A stretch of DNA of 64,000 nucleotides, from contig NZ_JAQSLN010000005.1 of NCBI RefSeq assembly GCF_028649655.1, positions 249,409-313,408 on the forward strand. The letters run 5' to 3'. Within the stretch, counting starts at the first letter, position 1. Every line of letters begins with the position of its first letter. This document shows positions 49,109 to 59,495 of this stretch, one piece after another. The notes beneath the pieces were generated by a model that saw only the letters and a program-made list of their open reading frames with translations, did not search any database and was not told the DNA's origin. The DNA comes from Halobacteriovorax sp. GB3. GTDB taxonomy: Bacteria; Bdellovibrionota; Bacteriovoracia; Bacteriovoracales; Bacteriovoracaceae. Made by a program: the position numbers and the translations under genes.

Positions 49109-49894
49109 ATGTTGAAAATATCTGGCCCTCTAACGAGGGCCTTTTTTATTTGTATTGTTCTATTAATAACAGGTTGCTCGACTAATAGGAGTAAGCCGGA
49201 ATGGAATTTTGAAGTTAATAAATCTGCAAAGGGTGACTATGGCGATCATTTTGAAAGTATCGGCCAAAGTTTTTTAAAAACTCCTGGTACGAGAGTTATT
49301 AATCTTACATGGTCATCGAAAAACTATCTGAAAGATATTTACGATAGAATCGTAAAAAACAATGAACTTCTTCTAGCAAATGCTCCAAGACCAACATTTA
49401 ATATCATTAAATCTGATACGCCTTTTTACTTTTCCTTACCTAAGGGACATTTCTTTTTTAGCTCTGGCTTGATTACGAAGTATCTTAGAAATGAACAGCT
49501 CCTTGTGGCCATGATGTCAGCAGAGATCTTTAGAAGTGTTAATTCAATTTATGAGAAAAACGTCGTAGTTCCTGTTGGGTATATGACCTTAGAACACATC
49601 TTATCGATTCTAAAAATATCGTTGAAATTAAAATCTGAAGTAAATAAGAATTCATATATTCTATTAAGAAGAGCTGGATATGATCCATCGGCATATTTAG
49701 TTTGGCTACAAACACAAAATAAAAACATGCTCGACTTTGCTCTTCAACACGGTACTTCGAGAAGAATGTCAAAAGAAGAGTATTTATTCAAAAATTATAT
49801 CGCATCTAAGAAAGACCGATTTGAAGGTATCGAAGAGAAGAACTCAAGTCGAAGTTTTTATAGATTCCTAAATAACATCAAGGGTAGAAGATGA
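49109..49894 (+). CDS. M48-like lipoprotein lacking the HExxH zinc site
   Basis: The 261-residue lipoprotein has lipobox ITGC (Cys23). The segment SLPKGHFFFSSGLI followed by NEQLLVAMMSAEIFRSV lines up with the M48 metallopeptidase pattern LPxGxifvxtGLl...neaELaaVLAHEiaHv, and GYDPSAYLVWL fits the later GYDPxAxxxf helix. At the zinc site the two histidines are replaced (A138, R142), leaving only E139, so proteolysis is not expected. It could be a chaperone-like pseudopeptidase. The start codons overlap a strong terminator hairpin, and the end overlaps the AmgK-like gene by four bases. Confidence 0.72.
   Translation: MLKISGPLTRAFFICIVLLITGCSTNRSKPEWNFEVNKSAKGDYGDHFESIGQSFLKTPGTRVINLTWSSKNYLKDIYDRIVKNNELLLANAPRPTFNIIKSDTPFYFSLPKGHFFFSSGLITKYLRNEQLLVAMMSAEIFRSVNSIYEKNVVVPVGYMTLEHILSILKISLKLKSEVNKNSYILLRRAGYDPSAYLVWLQTQNKNMLDFALQHGTSRRMSKEEYLFKNYIASKKDRFEGIEEKNSSRSFYRFLNNIKGRR
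49124..49147 (+). terminator. Intrinsic terminator overlapping the M48-like signal peptide codons
   Basis: GGCCCTC (49124-49130) pairs with GAGGGCC (49135-49141) around TAAC, followed by six Ts. It would end the LysM transcript, but it also encodes residues 6-13 of the M48-like lipoprotein, the n-region and the first part of its signal helix. Confidence 0.8.
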
Positions 49895-53653: not shown

Positions 53654-53683
53654 AAAAAGGCTCCTTTCGGAGCCTTTCTTATT
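53652..53683. terminator. Bidirectional intrinsic terminator
   Basis: AAAGGCTCC (53656-53664) pairs with GGAGCCTTT (53669-53677) around TTTC, with T-rich tails on both strands. It separates two convergent genes. Confidence 0.9.
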
Positions 53684-54519
53684 TATAGTGACATGTAATA
53701 GTCTTTAATCATGAGAGCATCGTCTTCGAGGTTAGGGCTGTTACAGATAACATATCCTCTACAATCGTACTCTTTAAGAACTTTAAAAAGTCCTCTCCAG
53801 TTGAAGTCAGATTGCTCAAGGTTAAGATGCTTTAGATCACCTTTAGAGTTTGAGCTAATTCCTGAAATATGGATGTGCATATTTTCGAGAGCTTCTGGAG
53901 TGAGTTCTTCTTTCAATTTATCAAGTACAAGTCTGAACTCTTCTTCAGTATTGTACTCACCAGTTCTTGCGTAAAGGTGAGAAAAATCCATACAAGGACG
54001 ACATGAGGAAACATTCTTTGTTAAAGAGATTAGTTCTTCAAGAGATCCAAATTGAGATGTCTTACCTGTAAGTTCTGGACGTAGTTCGATTTCGATATCA
54101 AGACGACTAAGTCTTTCTTCGATAACGTTCATACTTTTTTCAACGAGATCAAATACGTCATATGGCGAATCTTTCATATAGAAAGCCGCGTGAAAAGTCA
54201 TAGATTCAGCACCGCAAAGATCAGAAATCTTAGCTGTCTGAATAATTCTTTCTACAGATGAATCGATTTTATCTTGCTCTCTAGCATTTAGGTTAATGTA
54301 ATAAGGACCGTGTGAAGTAAGTGGAACACCTAATTCATATGAAACTTTACGTAAACCAGAGGAAACTTCTTCTTTCATTCGCACGCCATGCGCGAATTCT
54401 AATTGCATGCAGTCTAATCCTAATTCATGGATTCTTCTAACACCATCAATTGGATTATTTTTTTTGGAAGTTGAGTTAGGAACTCCCGCAGTACCAAATA
54501 GTAGACGTTCTATTTGCAT
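53683..54519 (-). CDS. Endonuclease IV-like TIM-barrel protein
   Basis: The 278-residue protein matches the AP endonuclease 2 / EndoIV barrel: SHGPYYINLNAREQDK near residue 70 (EndoIV H-PYLINLA), TFHAAF, a metal glutamate in IELRPELTGK, PCMDFSHLYARTG (EndoIV CxDxxHxxAxG) and MHIHISGI. It probably cuts DNA at abasic sites. Related xylose-isomerase-like sugar enzymes are an alternative, because the GQGSNLG-type loop is altered. The start is ATG 54519 with GGGGGA upstream; the TTG one codon earlier is less likely. Confidence 0.8.
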   Translation of the reverse strand: MQIERLLFGTAGVPNSTSKKNNPIDGVRRIHELGLDCMQLEFAHGVRMKEEVSSGLRKVSYELGVPLTSHGPYYINLNAREQDKIDSSVERIIQTAKISDLCGAESMTFHAAFYMKDSPYDVFDLVEKSMNVIEERLSRLDIEIELRPELTGKTSQFGSLEELISLTKNVSSCRPCMDFSHLYARTGEYNTEEEFRLVLDKLKEELTPEALENMHIHISGISSNSKGDLKHLNLEQSDFNWRGLFKVLKEYDCRGYVICNSPNLEDDALMIKDYYMSL

Positions 54520-54776
54520 CAATTCCCCCGATTAATAAGTTTGAAAGGCAGAAAACTATCGCTGTCATATCACATATTGGAATTTCGCTGTAGGCGCACT
54601 GTGGCAAACCTATTGATTACAATATGTTATGTGACTAGTTTTACGAATCCCGCCCCTCGTTGACTAAACGCATAACTTATAGCCGTATTAAAAATTCTTG
54701 TCTATAATCAAGCTTTGAGAATTGTAAGAATGACAAAAGATTGTAAAAAAGGAAAAGCCTTATTAAGTTAATTTTA

Positions 54777-55556
54777 TTGTATTTTTGGTGGTTGGCCTAT
54801 GTACTTTTCTTTGCATTAATTGGATACCTCACAGGTGGTCTCGAGTTGATGTATGTTCTAATTCTTGCTTTTGTCTTTGCCTCACTAATTCTTTACGCCT
54901 TTGGTGATCGAATCGTTCTCGGTCTTGTTAATGCTCGTAAGGCCATTATTGATCGCGAGTTATGGAGAAAGGCCAATAACATTGCTTCGAAACAAAATAT
55001 TGGCTCCGTCCAAATTTACACAGCTAAACATCTCGCATCTAATATCTACTTTATCGAGTCTTCATTTGGTAATAGGGCCCTTATTTTTGGCGGTAATATT
55101 GAAAGATATTTAAGTGATTCAGAAATTGAAGTGCTGACATATGCTAGCTTGAAGATGTTTAACGGTCATTTTGCAAAAATTAGAATCATGTTTGGACTTC
55201 TCAATTATGCCTTCGATCTTCCGTCTTATCTTTTTAGAAAGACAACTAAACTGCAGTGGCTCGATTTAATTTATGGTTACCTAAGGTCTCCGCTACTTCT
55301 AATTCAAAACACGCTCTTTAGAAGCCGTAAAATCAGATACTTAGATGAGCTTGTTGCCGAGGAAACAGGCCTTGGTAAAGAATTGGGATCTGCAATTTAT
55401 AAACTTTCTGATGTTCGAGCTTTAAACAATACTTTTCTACAAGAAAGTATCATGAATTCACTTACTTATGCCGATAATAAAGTAAATGAAAACACTTCTT
55501 TTTTTGTCGATCAACCTAGATCGCAGGAGCGTTTTCAGATTCTTTTATCGGAATAA
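54777..55556 (+). CDS. HtpX-like membrane protein with lost catalytic site
   Basis: Two N-terminal helices (about 3-22, 26-43) lead into FGDRIVLGLVNARK, matching the HtpX FSDKxVLxxxxAxx. ASNIYFI and LIFGGNIERYLSDSEIEVL then align with HtpX xNAFATG and xVTxGLLxxLxxdELegVL. Where HELAH should follow, the sequence reads ASLKM (123-127), so no zinc-binding histidine or catalytic glutamate is left. The later helix SRKIRYLDELVAEETGL mimics SRxREyxADxxgA. It is a pseudopeptidase candidate. The TTG start lacks a nearby ribosome site; an ATT at 54762, eight bases after AGGA, is an alternative. It heads the unit with the CHASE2 kinase. Confidence 0.72.
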   Translation: MYFWWLAYVLFFALIGYLTGGLELMYVLILAFVFASLILYAFGDRIVLGLVNARKAIIDRELWRKANNIASKQNIGSVQIYTAKHLASNIYFIESSFGNRALIFGGNIERYLSDSEIEVLTYASLKMFNGHFAKIRIMFGLLNYAFDLPSYLFRKTTKLQWLDLIYGYLRSPLLLIQNTLFRSRKIRYLDELVAEETGLGKELGSAIYKLSDVRALNNTFLQESIMNSLTYADNKVNENTSFFVDQPRSQERFQILLSE

Positions 55557-55561
55557 GGTGA

Positions 55562-57442
55562 ATGAGAAAATTTAGTTTTAAAGATTTAGACTTCTCAAAA
55601 TTATATCCTTTTATATTTACGGTCATTCTCGTGGCCATTCTTTTTCAGTACTCTTTTTCTAACTTAGAATCAGTATTTTATGATCTTCGCGTTAAATACG
55701 ACTTTGGTATAAGCTTTCGCGATAATATCGTCATCGTTACGCTAGATGAGGAAAGTGATAACTTTCTTGGTGAATCTTATCCTTATACATATGCGACTCA
55801 CAACAGAGTTTTAAAAAGAGTTTTAGATGAAAAGCCACTAGTAATTAATTATCTTGTTCAATTAGATGAGCCAGATTCAGCAAGATCAGAAGCGAATTTA
55901 AATAAATTGAAAGCAACGATAAAAGATTTTGTTAAAACAGGTGGTGCCTTTCGGTTTGGTACAAGCTTGGATGCGTGGGGTGAGCAATTACCTCCTGAGC
56001 CTTTAAAGGATCTCGGTTTTTCCTTGGCCCTAATCAATGTTGATAATGCTTCATTTGCAAGAGATGACGTTTCTAGAAAAGCGATCCTTAATCATTCAGG
56101 TGAAGATACACTTCACTTATGGACGGCTAATGCTTACAGAAGAAGGATTGGACGCTTACCGCTGAAACTAAATGACATAACAGGCGCTTATTATGTCGTT
56201 GAAAGCGATGCTACATTCGTTAATTTTAGATATTATACATCGACAGTAGAAGACACTGGTAGAATTAAGAGAATTCCATTTCATAGAGTTGTTGTTGGAA
56301 ACTTCCCTAAGGGATTGTTTAAAAATAAGATCGTTCTCTTTGGGCCAAGTTATATTTCGAATGCCTCTGATTTTGTTATGACCCCTTATGATCGAGAGAA
56401 GTACTCATCTTCAAAAATGAGTGTTCATGGCGCAATTATGCAGTCCCTGATTCAAAATAAAACAATTTTTCAATTACCACGTGCCATTTCTTATTTCATT
56501 TCACTCATTCTAGGTCTTGTTCTTGCTTATGTGATCAATCGAATTAAGCCAACTCGTGGACTAGTATTTACTGTATCTACAATAGTCATAGTTATATTGA
56601 TTTCATATTTAGCCTTCTGTTTGTTTGGAGTCTGGATATACTTGTCACACATTCTCTTAACTATATTCGTTGTCTATTACATATGGGTACCTTTCAGAGC
56701 GATTGGAGAATACCAACGTCGATACGCAATTCAGGAAGAAACAAAACTTCTTAAGAAAGTTGAGAATCTAAAGCAGAATTTTATTTCGTTGATGAGTCAC
56801 GATTTAAAAACACCTGTCGCAAAGATTGCTGGTATCGCAGATGTGGCCATGCATAAGTTTGGTCGTTCAGAGCCTGAAGTGAAACATGAATTTCAAAGAA
56901 TTATTGAAGCGACAAAAGAATTAAATAAATTTATCACCTCGATTTTAGATTTAACAAAGATCGAATCGCGAAATATTAGTTTGAATAAGACGTCGAAAGA
57001 TATCAATACAATCATTGATTCAGTCATTGATAACTTAAAATTTGAAGCTGGCCAGAAAAATGTAAAAATAGATAAAGAACTGAGTCCGCTTTATCCAATT
57101 CAGGTAGACGTTATATTAATTAACAGAGTTATTTCTAATCTAATTGAAAATGCGATAAAATATTCAGGAGAAAACACTTCTGTTCATGTTCGAAGTTGGG
57201 ATGATGAACAATGGGTTTATCTTGAAATCAAAGATGATGGAGTAGGTATTCCGCTAGAAGATCTAGAAAATATCTTTGAAAAGTTTTATCGAGTGAAAAA
57301 TGACCAAAGTCACGTCATTAAGGGAAGTGGTCTTGGTTTATATTTAGTTAAATATTTCGTTGAGTTACATGGAGGGACAATTGAAGCTTCCTCTAAACTT
57401 GGTGAAGGGACAACTTTTACGATAAAGCTCATTAATGAATAG
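55562..57442 (+). CDS. CHASE2-domain sensor histidine kinase
   Basis: Membrane sensor kinase of 626 residues. A helix at about 14-30 precedes a large extracytoplasmic CHASE2 domain (about 35-305, opening ESVFYDLRVKYDF). Three closely spaced helices (about 308-375) and a short coiled coil follow. The HisKA box is SLMSHDLKTP (H413), and the HATPase has N (NLIENAIKYS), G1 (DDGVGI) and G2 (GSGLGLYLVK) boxes. It should autophosphorylate and pass the phosphate to the regulator encoded 9 bases downstream. The ligand sensed by CHASE2 is unknown. Confidence 0.93.
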   Translation: MRKFSFKDLDFSKLYPFIFTVILVAILFQYSFSNLESVFYDLRVKYDFGISFRDNIVIVTLDEESDNFLGESYPYTYATHNRVLKRVLDEKPLVINYLVQLDEPDSARSEANLNKLKATIKDFVKTGGAFRFGTSLDAWGEQLPPEPLKDLGFSLALINVDNASFARDDVSRKAILNHSGEDTLHLWTANAYRRRIGRLPLKLNDITGAYYVVESDATFVNFRYYTSTVEDTGRIKRIPFHRVVVGNFPKGLFKNKIVLFGPSYISNASDFVMTPYDREKYSSSKMSVHGAIMQSLIQNKTIFQLPRAISYFISLILGLVLAYVINRIKPTRGLVFTVSTIVIVILISYLAFCLFGVWIYLSHILLTIFVVYYIWVPFRAIGEYQRRYAIQEETKLLKKVENLKQNFISLMSHDLKTPVAKIAGIADVAMHKFGRSEPEVKHEFQRIIEATKELNKFITSILDLTKIESRNISLNKTSKDINTIIDSVIDNLKFEAGQKNVKIDKELSPLYPIQVDVILINRVISNLIENAIKYSGENTSVHVRSWDDEQWVYLEIKDDGVGIPLEDLENIFEKFYRVKNDQSHVIKGSGLGLYLVKYFVELHGGTIEASSKLGEGTTFTIKLINE

Positions 57443-57451
57443 GAGAACAAT

Positions 57452-58960
57452 ATGTATAGAGTACTTGTAGTTGATGATGACAAAGTCTTGCAGGACAATG
57501 TTAAACAAGCACTAGAAATTCACCATTTTAATGTTGATGTTGCTAATAATGGAAAAGAAGCAGTTAGTGCTGTCTATAAAGAGAAGTATGATCTCGTCGT
57601 CATGGACGTTAACATGCCTGAGATGGATGGAATTGAAGCTCTCGCTGAAATAAAAAAATATGATCCAACAATCATTGTTCTAATTCTCACAGCATATTCA
57701 AACGTTTCTGATGCCGTTAAAGCAGTTAAAGAGGGGGCGTTCAATTATTTAGAAAAGCCAATTTCTAGTGAGAACTTAGTTGCTCTTATCAAAAGGGCTC
57801 TTAAGGCCCGTTCACTCGTTGAAACATCAATGTTCTCGGCTCCAACACTTTCTCTTGGTGATGGTAACGATAAATTTGTTGGTGAATCGGATGTCATGAA
57901 AAAGGTTTTCAATGTCATCAGTAAGCTCGCTCAAGTTAACACACCTGTATTGATTCGTGGTGAATCAGGAACTGGTAAAGAGCTTGTTGCAAAGGCCATT
58001 CACTATAACGGACCTAGAAAAGATGATAAGTTTGTAACGATTAACCTCGCTGCTATTCCTGATAGTCTTATTGAGTCTGAACTTTTTGGACACGAAAAAG
58101 GTGCTTTTACAGGAGCTACAGAAAGAAAAATTGGTAAGTTTCAATATGCCGATGGTGGAACAATCTTTCTCGATGAGATTGGAGATATTTCTGGAACGAT
58201 GCAGGTTAAACTTCTTCGTGTTCTTCAAGAAAAGAGTTTTACACCTGTTGGATCAAATAGAGATATCAAGTGTGATGTTCGTGTCATCGCGGCTTCACAT
58301 AAGCCATTTGAGAAAATGATTAAAGAGGGAGATTTTAGAGAGGATTTATTTTATCGTCTCAATGTTCTACCTGTTTACTTACCGCCTTTAAGAGAGAGAA
58401 AGGATGACATTAACTTTCTAGTTGATTACTACGTAAAATATTTCAACAACCTTCATAACTTAACAATTTCAGAAGTTGCTCCAGATGCCATCGAATTGCT
58501 GAAGAATTATTCATGGCCAGGAAATATTAGAGAACTTAGAAATGTTATTGAGCATGCTTTTATTATAGAATCTACTGATATACTAACGGCGAGTTCTCTC
58601 CCTGAAACAGTGAGAACAAATAATAATTCATTAAGTAAAGTTCCGGCTCCAGCGCCAGAAGATAGAGATGATGAAAGTATTATTGATTTCGTTGGAATTA
58701 AAGAGTCTGTTCTAGACAAAGAAATTAAAGAAGAAGAAAGTAATGATTATAAATTTACTTTTGCTACTGTAAATGACAACAACGAAGTTAAAATGGACTT
58801 CCAGGTAGCGAAGGAATTATTTGAAAAACAATTTATAATAGAAGCTTTAAAAGTAAATAATGGAAAGATTAATCAGACGGCACTTAAGGCCAATATTCCT
58901 AAGAAGACACTTCTTAGAAAAATTGAGAAGTACGAGATTAATCCAAAAGAATATTACTAG
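57452..58960 (+). CDS. NtrC-type sigma-54-dependent response regulator
   Basis: The 502 residues are a receiver domain with phospho-acceptor D52 (MDVNMPEMDG), an AAA+ domain with Walker A GESGTGKE (170-177) and an intact GAFTGA loop (217-222) that contacts sigma-54, then a FleQ/NtrC-like Fis-type HTH at the C-terminus (KINQTALKANIPKKTLLRKI). It should activate RpoN promoters after phosphorylation by the CHASE2 kinase. A strong AGGAGAACAAT ribosome site precedes the ATG. A candidate target in this window is the sigma-54 promoter at 42471, which is unproven. Confidence 0.96.
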   Translation: MYRVLVVDDDKVLQDNVKQALEIHHFNVDVANNGKEAVSAVYKEKYDLVVMDVNMPEMDGIEALAEIKKYDPTIIVLILTAYSNVSDAVKAVKEGAFNYLEKPISSENLVALIKRALKARSLVETSMFSAPTLSLGDGNDKFVGESDVMKKVFNVISKLAQVNTPVLIRGESGTGKELVAKAIHYNGPRKDDKFVTINLAAIPDSLIESELFGHEKGAFTGATERKIGKFQYADGGTIFLDEIGDISGTMQVKLLRVLQEKSFTPVGSNRDIKCDVRVIAASHKPFEKMIKEGDFREDLFYRLNVLPVYLPPLRERKDDINFLVDYYVKYFNNLHNLTISEVAPDAIELLKNYSWPGNIRELRNVIEHAFIIESTDILTASSLPETVRTNNNSLSKVPAPAPEDRDDESIIDFVGIKESVLDKEIKEEESNDYKFTFATVNDNNEVKMDFQVAKELFEKQFIIEALKVNNGKINQTALKANIPKKTLLRKIEKYEINPKEYY

Positions 58961-58969
58961 AGGAAGGTA

Positions 58970-59479
58970 ATGGATAGAATTTGGAAAATGACATTGATGA
59001 TGGTTGGAATCATCTTGGTAGATCAATTTACTAAAGGCTATATTCAGCACGAATATACACTTGGAGAAATTAGACCCGTGATAGATGGTCTTTTCAATCT
59101 TACTTATGTTCAAAATAAAGGTGCTGCCTTTGGTTTTGGAGCAAACCATTCTGACTTATTTAGAATCATCATGTTCCTAGTCTTACCGACTGGAGCTTGT
59201 TTTTGGCTCATGTATTTAATCTGGCAAACAAGGCATACAGCGCTTTTACTTTGTACATCGTATTCAATGATTTTAGCTGGAGCGATCGGGAATCTCATCG
59301 ATCGATTTAGTTTGCGATTTGTCGTTGATATGTTTGATTTTTACTATGGCACATGGCACTTTGCTGCTTTTAATGTGGCAGATAGTGCGATTACAGTAGG
59401 TGCTATTTTTCTAATTTATGATTTTTTATTTTTAGAGAAAAAGAGAATTGAAAAACAGGAATTAAAAAAGACCTCTTAA
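58970..59479 (+). CDS. lspA: Lipoprotein signal peptidase
   Basis: Signal peptidase II, the inner-membrane aspartyl protease that removes lipoprotein signal peptides. It has four hydrophobic helices and the conserved NKGAAFGF, GNLIDRF and FVVDMFDF (catalytic D120) motifs, with FNVADSAI carrying catalytic D138. The 169 residues are typical. It lies 9 bases after the response regulator, so it may share its transcript, although a housekeeping gene would be expected to have its own promoter. The stop codon lies within its terminator. Confidence 0.96.
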   Translation: MDRIWKMTLMMVGIILVDQFTKGYIQHEYTLGEIRPVIDGLFNLTYVQNKGAAFGFGANHSDLFRIIMFLVLPTGACFWLMYLIWQTRHTALLLCTSYSMILAGAIGNLIDRFSLRFVVDMFDFYYGTWHFAAFNVADSAITVGAIFLIYDFLFLEKKRIEKQELKKTS

Positions 59480-59495
59480 AGAGGTCTTTTTTTAT
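59464..59495. terminator. Bidirectional terminator spanning two stop codons
   Basis: A 12-bp stem (59464-59475 with 59481-59492, core AGACCTC/GAGGTCT) has loop TTAAA. The lspA stop (59477-59479) is inside the loop, and the converging ferredoxin gene ends at 59492. It works on both strands, with T-tracts on each. Confidence 0.9.

Follow-up and report, generated by a model that had tools for sequence, protein, structure and literature searches.

Does a membrane protease stripped of its catalytic residues take part in controlling the histidine kinase encoded beside it? The question is raised by three adjacent genes of Halobacteriovorax sp. GB3, found in a window of 64,000 nts (i.e., the whole stretch of DNA that was analyzed), in which an HtpX-like pseudopeptidase gene precedes a CHASE2 histidine kinase gene and an NtrC-type response regulator gene (Table 1). 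CHASE2 domains are widespread, and to our knowledge no ligand has been established for them. Dead membrane proteases are retained as regulators among the iRhoms (rhomboid pseudoproteases) and other pseudoproteases, although iRhoms are unrelated to the present protein in fold and come from unrelated organisms. Bacterial pseudoproteases in two-component signalling have hardly been described, and a full-text literature search found no paper on HtpX with CHASE2, or on HtpX with pseudoprotease.

Table 1. Features of the pseudopeptidase, kinase and regulator unit and of its flanks, in window positions
Feature	Position	Strand	Description
TIM-barrel gene	53683..54522	-	divergent; flanks the unit across the class; served as synteny anchor
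Promoter-like dyad	54677..54708	+	TTATAGC-N16-GTCTATAAT; conserved, 5′ of the unit
HtpX-derived pseudopeptidase	54777..55556	+	259 aa, TTG start; N-terminal membrane helix hairpin, M48-like alpha/beta domain (ASLKM replacing HExxH), second helix pair, C-terminal helices
CHASE2 histidine kinase	55562..57442	+	626 aa; CHASE2, membrane helices, HisKA with SHDLKTP, HATPase
NtrC-type sigma-54 response regulator	57452..58960	+	502 aa; receiver, AAA+ with GAFTGA, Fis-type HTH
lspA-like signal peptidase II gene	58970..59479	+	3′ of the regulator here and in most relatives

A remote relative of HtpX and the loss of its zinc site

The pseudopeptidase of the window matches no Pfam family, even at an E-value of 1, nor does any of 35 family members match a relevant one at 0.1, the cut-off of PF01435 not being reached. 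The likeness to HtpX is therefore remote, and it was tested by profile and by structure. A profile of the 35 family orthologs was aligned by hhalign with that of six active M48B-type proteins at a probability of 99.1% (E 9.8e-19). The 206 aligned columns extend from the hairpin at the N terminus as far as the helices that follow the catalytic site, in agreement with an earlier sequence-only reading in which the protein follows HtpX from its two N-terminal helices to the post-catalytic helix. Beyond the range of this alignment, the C-terminal segment of the window protein reads VDQPRSQERFQIL, a similar and possibly corresponding stretch to the (S)THPxxxxRI of HtpX. A search of PDB sequences with the family profile returned nothing significant (best E 0.18).

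The AlphaFold model of the pseudopeptidase (pLDDT 89.4, pTM 0.85) recovers the structural similarity to HtpX that the same reading had anticipated, with a Z-score of 10.9 (rmsd 2.8 over 96 residues) to the HtpX domain 3cqb. The best PDB matches were Ste24p (Z 12.2) and ZMPSTE24 (Z 11.4), of the M48A group; BlaR1 (Z 9.5) and BepA were also among the matches, and all those that stand out are M48/M56 gluzincins. Because the Foldseek E-values are modest (best 0.002), the structural case is that M48/M56 proteins head the list at Z 9-12 with a gap below them. The fold includes both the N-terminal membrane hairpin and the second helix pair of HtpX, the hairpin (H4-27/H32-58) being resolved in the model of the L153 homolog. 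In contrast with the pseudopeptidase, Ste24p and ZMPSTE24 are active and have more transmembrane helices; we know of no kinase linkage for either. BlaR1, an M56 sensor-transducer, shows the gluzincin membrane protease fold employed in signalling but is an active protease that has a sensor domain of its own within the same chain and works without a histidine kinase.

In the hhalign alignment, HELSH of HtpX falls on ASLKM, the reading already given to the catalytic motif from the letters of the gene, and the third-ligand segment SRSREYLAD (SRxREYxAD) falls on FRSRKIRYLDE, with no Glu in the aligned column. HExxH is found at the motif site in none of 91 distinct family members, the window's included. 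The residues in the motif columns vary and for the most part are non-ligating, and no conserved polar residue substitutes for the zinc ligands; the remnants consist of HE in 3 of the 91, two His at the right spacing in one member and an isolated Glu in the motif helix of a few. An HEIEH in L101 was considered as an active site and rejected as a chance occurrence, given its C-terminal position. Since both the zinc-binding and the catalytic residues are missing, proteolytic activity has presumably been lost.

The closest active relatives point to the kind of HtpX from which the family may derive. A retrieval profile built from the dead family alone, with no active member, scored active HtpX proteins of the SDKIVL type (MEROPS M48B; L115-L118) from sister families of Bdellovibrionota at 77-87 bits, whereas shuffled or reversed controls reached no more than about 5 bits. 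Inside the class Bacteriovoracia, the best active M48 scored was a 284-aa HtpX-like protein of the same genome (41 bits), and no close active HtpX of the SDKIVL type was found among the loci scored. The SDKIVL-type proteins share with the pseudopeptidase the hairpin with an SDKIVL/GDRIVL segment, the M48 domain and the second helix pair, in the same order and with the same spacing. In contrast, the pseudopeptidase lacks HExxH and the third Glu ligand, evolves far faster and adjoins a CHASE2 kinase, whereas no kinase or TIM-barrel neighbour was found at L115-L118. A simple reading of these scores, which are preferred to a tree made unreliable by long branches, is that the SDKIVL-type HtpX was retired in the Bacteriovoracia lineage while an E. 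coli-type HtpX and others stayed active.

Gene order and selection across Bacteriovoracia

The sequence-only reading had set the pseudopeptidase gene five bases upstream of a CHASE2 kinase gene followed by its regulator, and coordinates and domains agree: the kinase ATG lies five bases past the pseudopeptidase stop, Pfam matches CHASE2 (E 1.2e-22), HisKA and HATPase in the kinase, whose sequence includes SHDLKTP, and Response_reg, Sigma54_activat and HTH_8 in the regulator. The two proteins thus have the full composition of a CHASE2 sensor histidine kinase (CHASE2, HisKA with its His, HATPase_c) and of an NtrC-type regulator (receiver, sigma-54 AAA+ with GAFTGA, Fis HTH). The pseudopeptidase may in fact start at an in-frame ATT (54762), located a few bases past an AAGGA and five codons upstream of the TTG; a similarly placed ATT occurs in L059.

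A protein search in 97 relatives gave a match in 35 genomes, and the 20 orthologous loci that were examined all have the gene directly 5′ of the kinase. Gene order was then followed across this class of predatory-type bacteria at 117 loci whose kinase ortholog was usable, gathered from the kinase (45 loci) or from the TIM-barrel gene (72 loci); several genomes are sampled twice, leaving the 91 distinct proteins mentioned above. A same-strand open reading frame of 155-337 residues overlaps the kinase gene or ends within 25 nts of it at 116 of the 117, overlapping in 88 and lying 0-25 nts apart in 28, although the starts are those of the longest reading frames and the overlaps are hence upper bounds. 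The gene is therefore present beside the kinase in relatives, as the sequence-only reading required, and its place is fixed, with the close spacing of coupled genes and the conserved linkage expected of an accessory subunit of a two-component system. The sole exception is L087 (genome G032), where kinase and regulator are kept. In other families of the phylum, no HtpX-like neighbour of the kinase homologs was found. A profile search of 129 genomes of the class gave a match in 119, some of which matched solely through other M48 genes. The pseudopeptidase is lost, shortened or past profile recognition in L087, L060, L160, L062/L095 and L102, and because L060 and L160 are the two deepest branches, the gene may or may not be ancestral to the whole class.

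Nucleotide comparisons of close pairs gave dN/dS values of 0.17 (L075/L176), 0.076 (L130/L135), 0.065 (L163/L166) and 0.052 (L132/L144), which are rough since many dS exceed 1. In the four best pairs, the dN of the pseudopeptidase was 1.9-7.4 times that of the kinase, and it was several-fold above that of the regulator. The protein is a conserved, fast-evolving pseudoenzyme under purifying selection and not a broken gene, because it is fixed with the kinase and regulator across the class and dead in every member examined. It represents a new, unannotated pseudopeptidase family in a familiar setting, that of a two-component system with a neighbour protein. As no Pfam family matches it, annotation pipelines would probably leave it as hypothetical. 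Its interest lies in its completeness across the class and in its clear active relatives: it shows a protease retired to what is probably a regulatory role, for which active counterparts in sister families allow comparison, and, beside one CHASE2 kinase throughout the class, it offers a concrete candidate for the control of that kinase.

A candidate regulator of the CHASE2 kinase

The reading we prefer, to which we give a probability of about one half, is that a zinc-dead HtpX, no longer proteolytic, has been kept to serve the CHASE2 kinase as an accessory subunit or a regulator. An ancestor shared by most or all Bacteriovoracia would have lost the zinc site of an HtpX-type membrane metalloprotease, and the gene of the dead protein would have stayed within a few bases of those for the kinase and its NtrC-type regulator. 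The capacity to bind a membrane partner or a peptide, though not to cut it, would most likely persist in the membrane hairpins and the protease-like groove. This binding, or a direct contact with the membrane or cytoplasmic part of the kinase, would set kinase activity, which in turn would set sigma-54-dependent transcription. Here the contact, the nature of the ligand and the direction of control are what we infer; the fold, the loss of the active site, the fixed and closely spaced gene order, the purifying selection and the rapid divergence are directly supported.

A precedent exists in Sinorhizobium, where JspA, a metalloprotease-family protein, modulates the ExoR-ExoS-ChvI two-component pathway (PMC10659215). 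JspA is a lipoprotein and a protease with a suggested role in the degradation of ExoR (PMC10659215); unlike the window protein, it is no pseudoenzyme. The absence of an HtpX-like neighbour from the kinase homologs outside the class also favours an accessory subunit. However, the kinase can persist without the pseudopeptidase (G032, L087), and a position in an operon is by itself no proof of contact. When the stop codon was read through at in-frame loci and the pseudopeptidase was folded with kinase residues 1-385 as one chain, the AlphaFold model (pLDDT 78, pTM 0.59, from a thin alignment) gave no confident relative placement, its pTM being about the value expected for two independent parts. 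The earlier proposal that a dead protease could take part in signal detection by the kinase is thus partly supported: the dead HtpX type and its unit with kinase and regulator stood, and the unit proved to be class-wide, while the predicted fold gave no confident contact with the kinase.

Further signs of a tie come from the six loci at which the pseudopeptidase is absent or beyond recognition by the profile. In five of them, the identity of CHASE2 to that of the window falls 5-9 points below the value predicted from the kinase domain, against a spread of 3.9 among intact loci (Mann-Whitney p 0.002, a statistic that ignores phylogeny, the six representing about four lineages on the regulator tree, of which two are the deepest). 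This co-degeneration weakly suggests that pseudopeptidase and kinase are functionally tied.

The M48 domain of known HtpX is turned to the cytoplasm, and by analogy that of the pseudopeptidase should be as well, on the side opposite to the extracytoplasmic CHASE2. Sensing in the periplasm directly through this domain would consequently not be an obvious geometry. Misfolded envelope proteins, which had been put forward as the signal, are a possible but unsupported choice. A stronger version of the preferred reading, which we hold only tentatively, is a class-wide complex in which the decommissioned HtpX would be a ligand-binding or gating subunit of the kinase, its fast evolution reflecting a ligand that varies between species (e.g., prey- or envelope-derived peptides). 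In that case a pseudoprotease would read the signal for a bacterial histidine kinase.

Among the rivals, the one that survives best, although we consider it somewhat unlikely, is that the protein rides in the operon with a separate envelope task, as a scaffold or chaperone of membrane proteins, needed alongside the kinase but with no direct part in signalling. Spacing that resembles co-transcription and strong positional conservation would be equally expected of such a passenger, as would the lack of a predicted contact in the fused fold (pTM 0.59, thin alignment). Its fixed position throughout the class despite great sequence divergence, and the lower conservation of CHASE2 where the pseudopeptidase is degenerate, are less readily explained in this way.

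A decoy in quality control is improbable to a greater degree. The dead HtpX would bind substrates or partners of active HtpX or FtsH and modulate their turnover, in the manner of iRhoms, with indirect effects on signalling. The fold and membrane hairpins that this would need are retained, and the genome itself keeps several active M48s, which makes the regulation of a paralog conceivable; however, the gene is linked to a kinase and not to active M48 genes, and its closest active relatives belong to sister families instead of its own genome. That the protein is still an enzyme, its active site rebuilt in a non-canonical form, is very hard to credit: the groove persists, as do HE or an isolated Glu in a few members, but nothing conserved and polar has taken the place of the zinc ligands in columns that are mostly non-ligating. 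Least probable of all is a decaying pseudogene or a chance reading frame between two conserved genes, to which extreme divergence, the lack of a Pfam match, the loss in G032 and truncation in a few lineages might point, since the frame is open at 116 of 117 loci, dN/dS is 0.05-0.17, purifying selection across the class contradicts decay and the M48-like fold is confidently predicted.

The upstream dyad and neighbouring genes

The core of the upstream dyad, TATAGC-N16-GTCTAT with small variants allowed in the second half, occurs at the exact spacing in 54 of the 117 loci, against 0.34 in shuffled controls. The two halves resemble -10 elements and face outward, which fits a divergent promoter serving both the unit and the TIM-barrel gene, the alternative reading being a site for a dimeric regulator. 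The core occurs once in the whole genome, and it was rejected as a means of finding a regulon, its matches with two mismatches being no more frequent than in controls. No sigma-54 -24/-12 site was matched 5′ of the unit in the 117 upstream regions; hence no autoregulation was found by the sigma-54 route.

The TIM-barrel protein, possibly endonuclease IV-like, is about 80-89% identical across the class, yet its gene adjoins one of the fastest-evolving genes. A second dead M48-type protein had been noticed nearby (49109-49894, + strand), and it is real by its motif, which is SAEIFRS here and AHEIIKS or the like in other genomes, with HExxH in 0 of 25 examined. The protein is a 261-aa lipoprotein, and 122 of 126 genomes of the class encode homologs of it. 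Where seen, these homologs are encoded about 5 kb upstream of the trio. At the other end, a strong bidirectional terminator-like hairpin of 13 pairs (59464-59492) lies between the lspA-like gene and a convergent ferredoxin-like gene.
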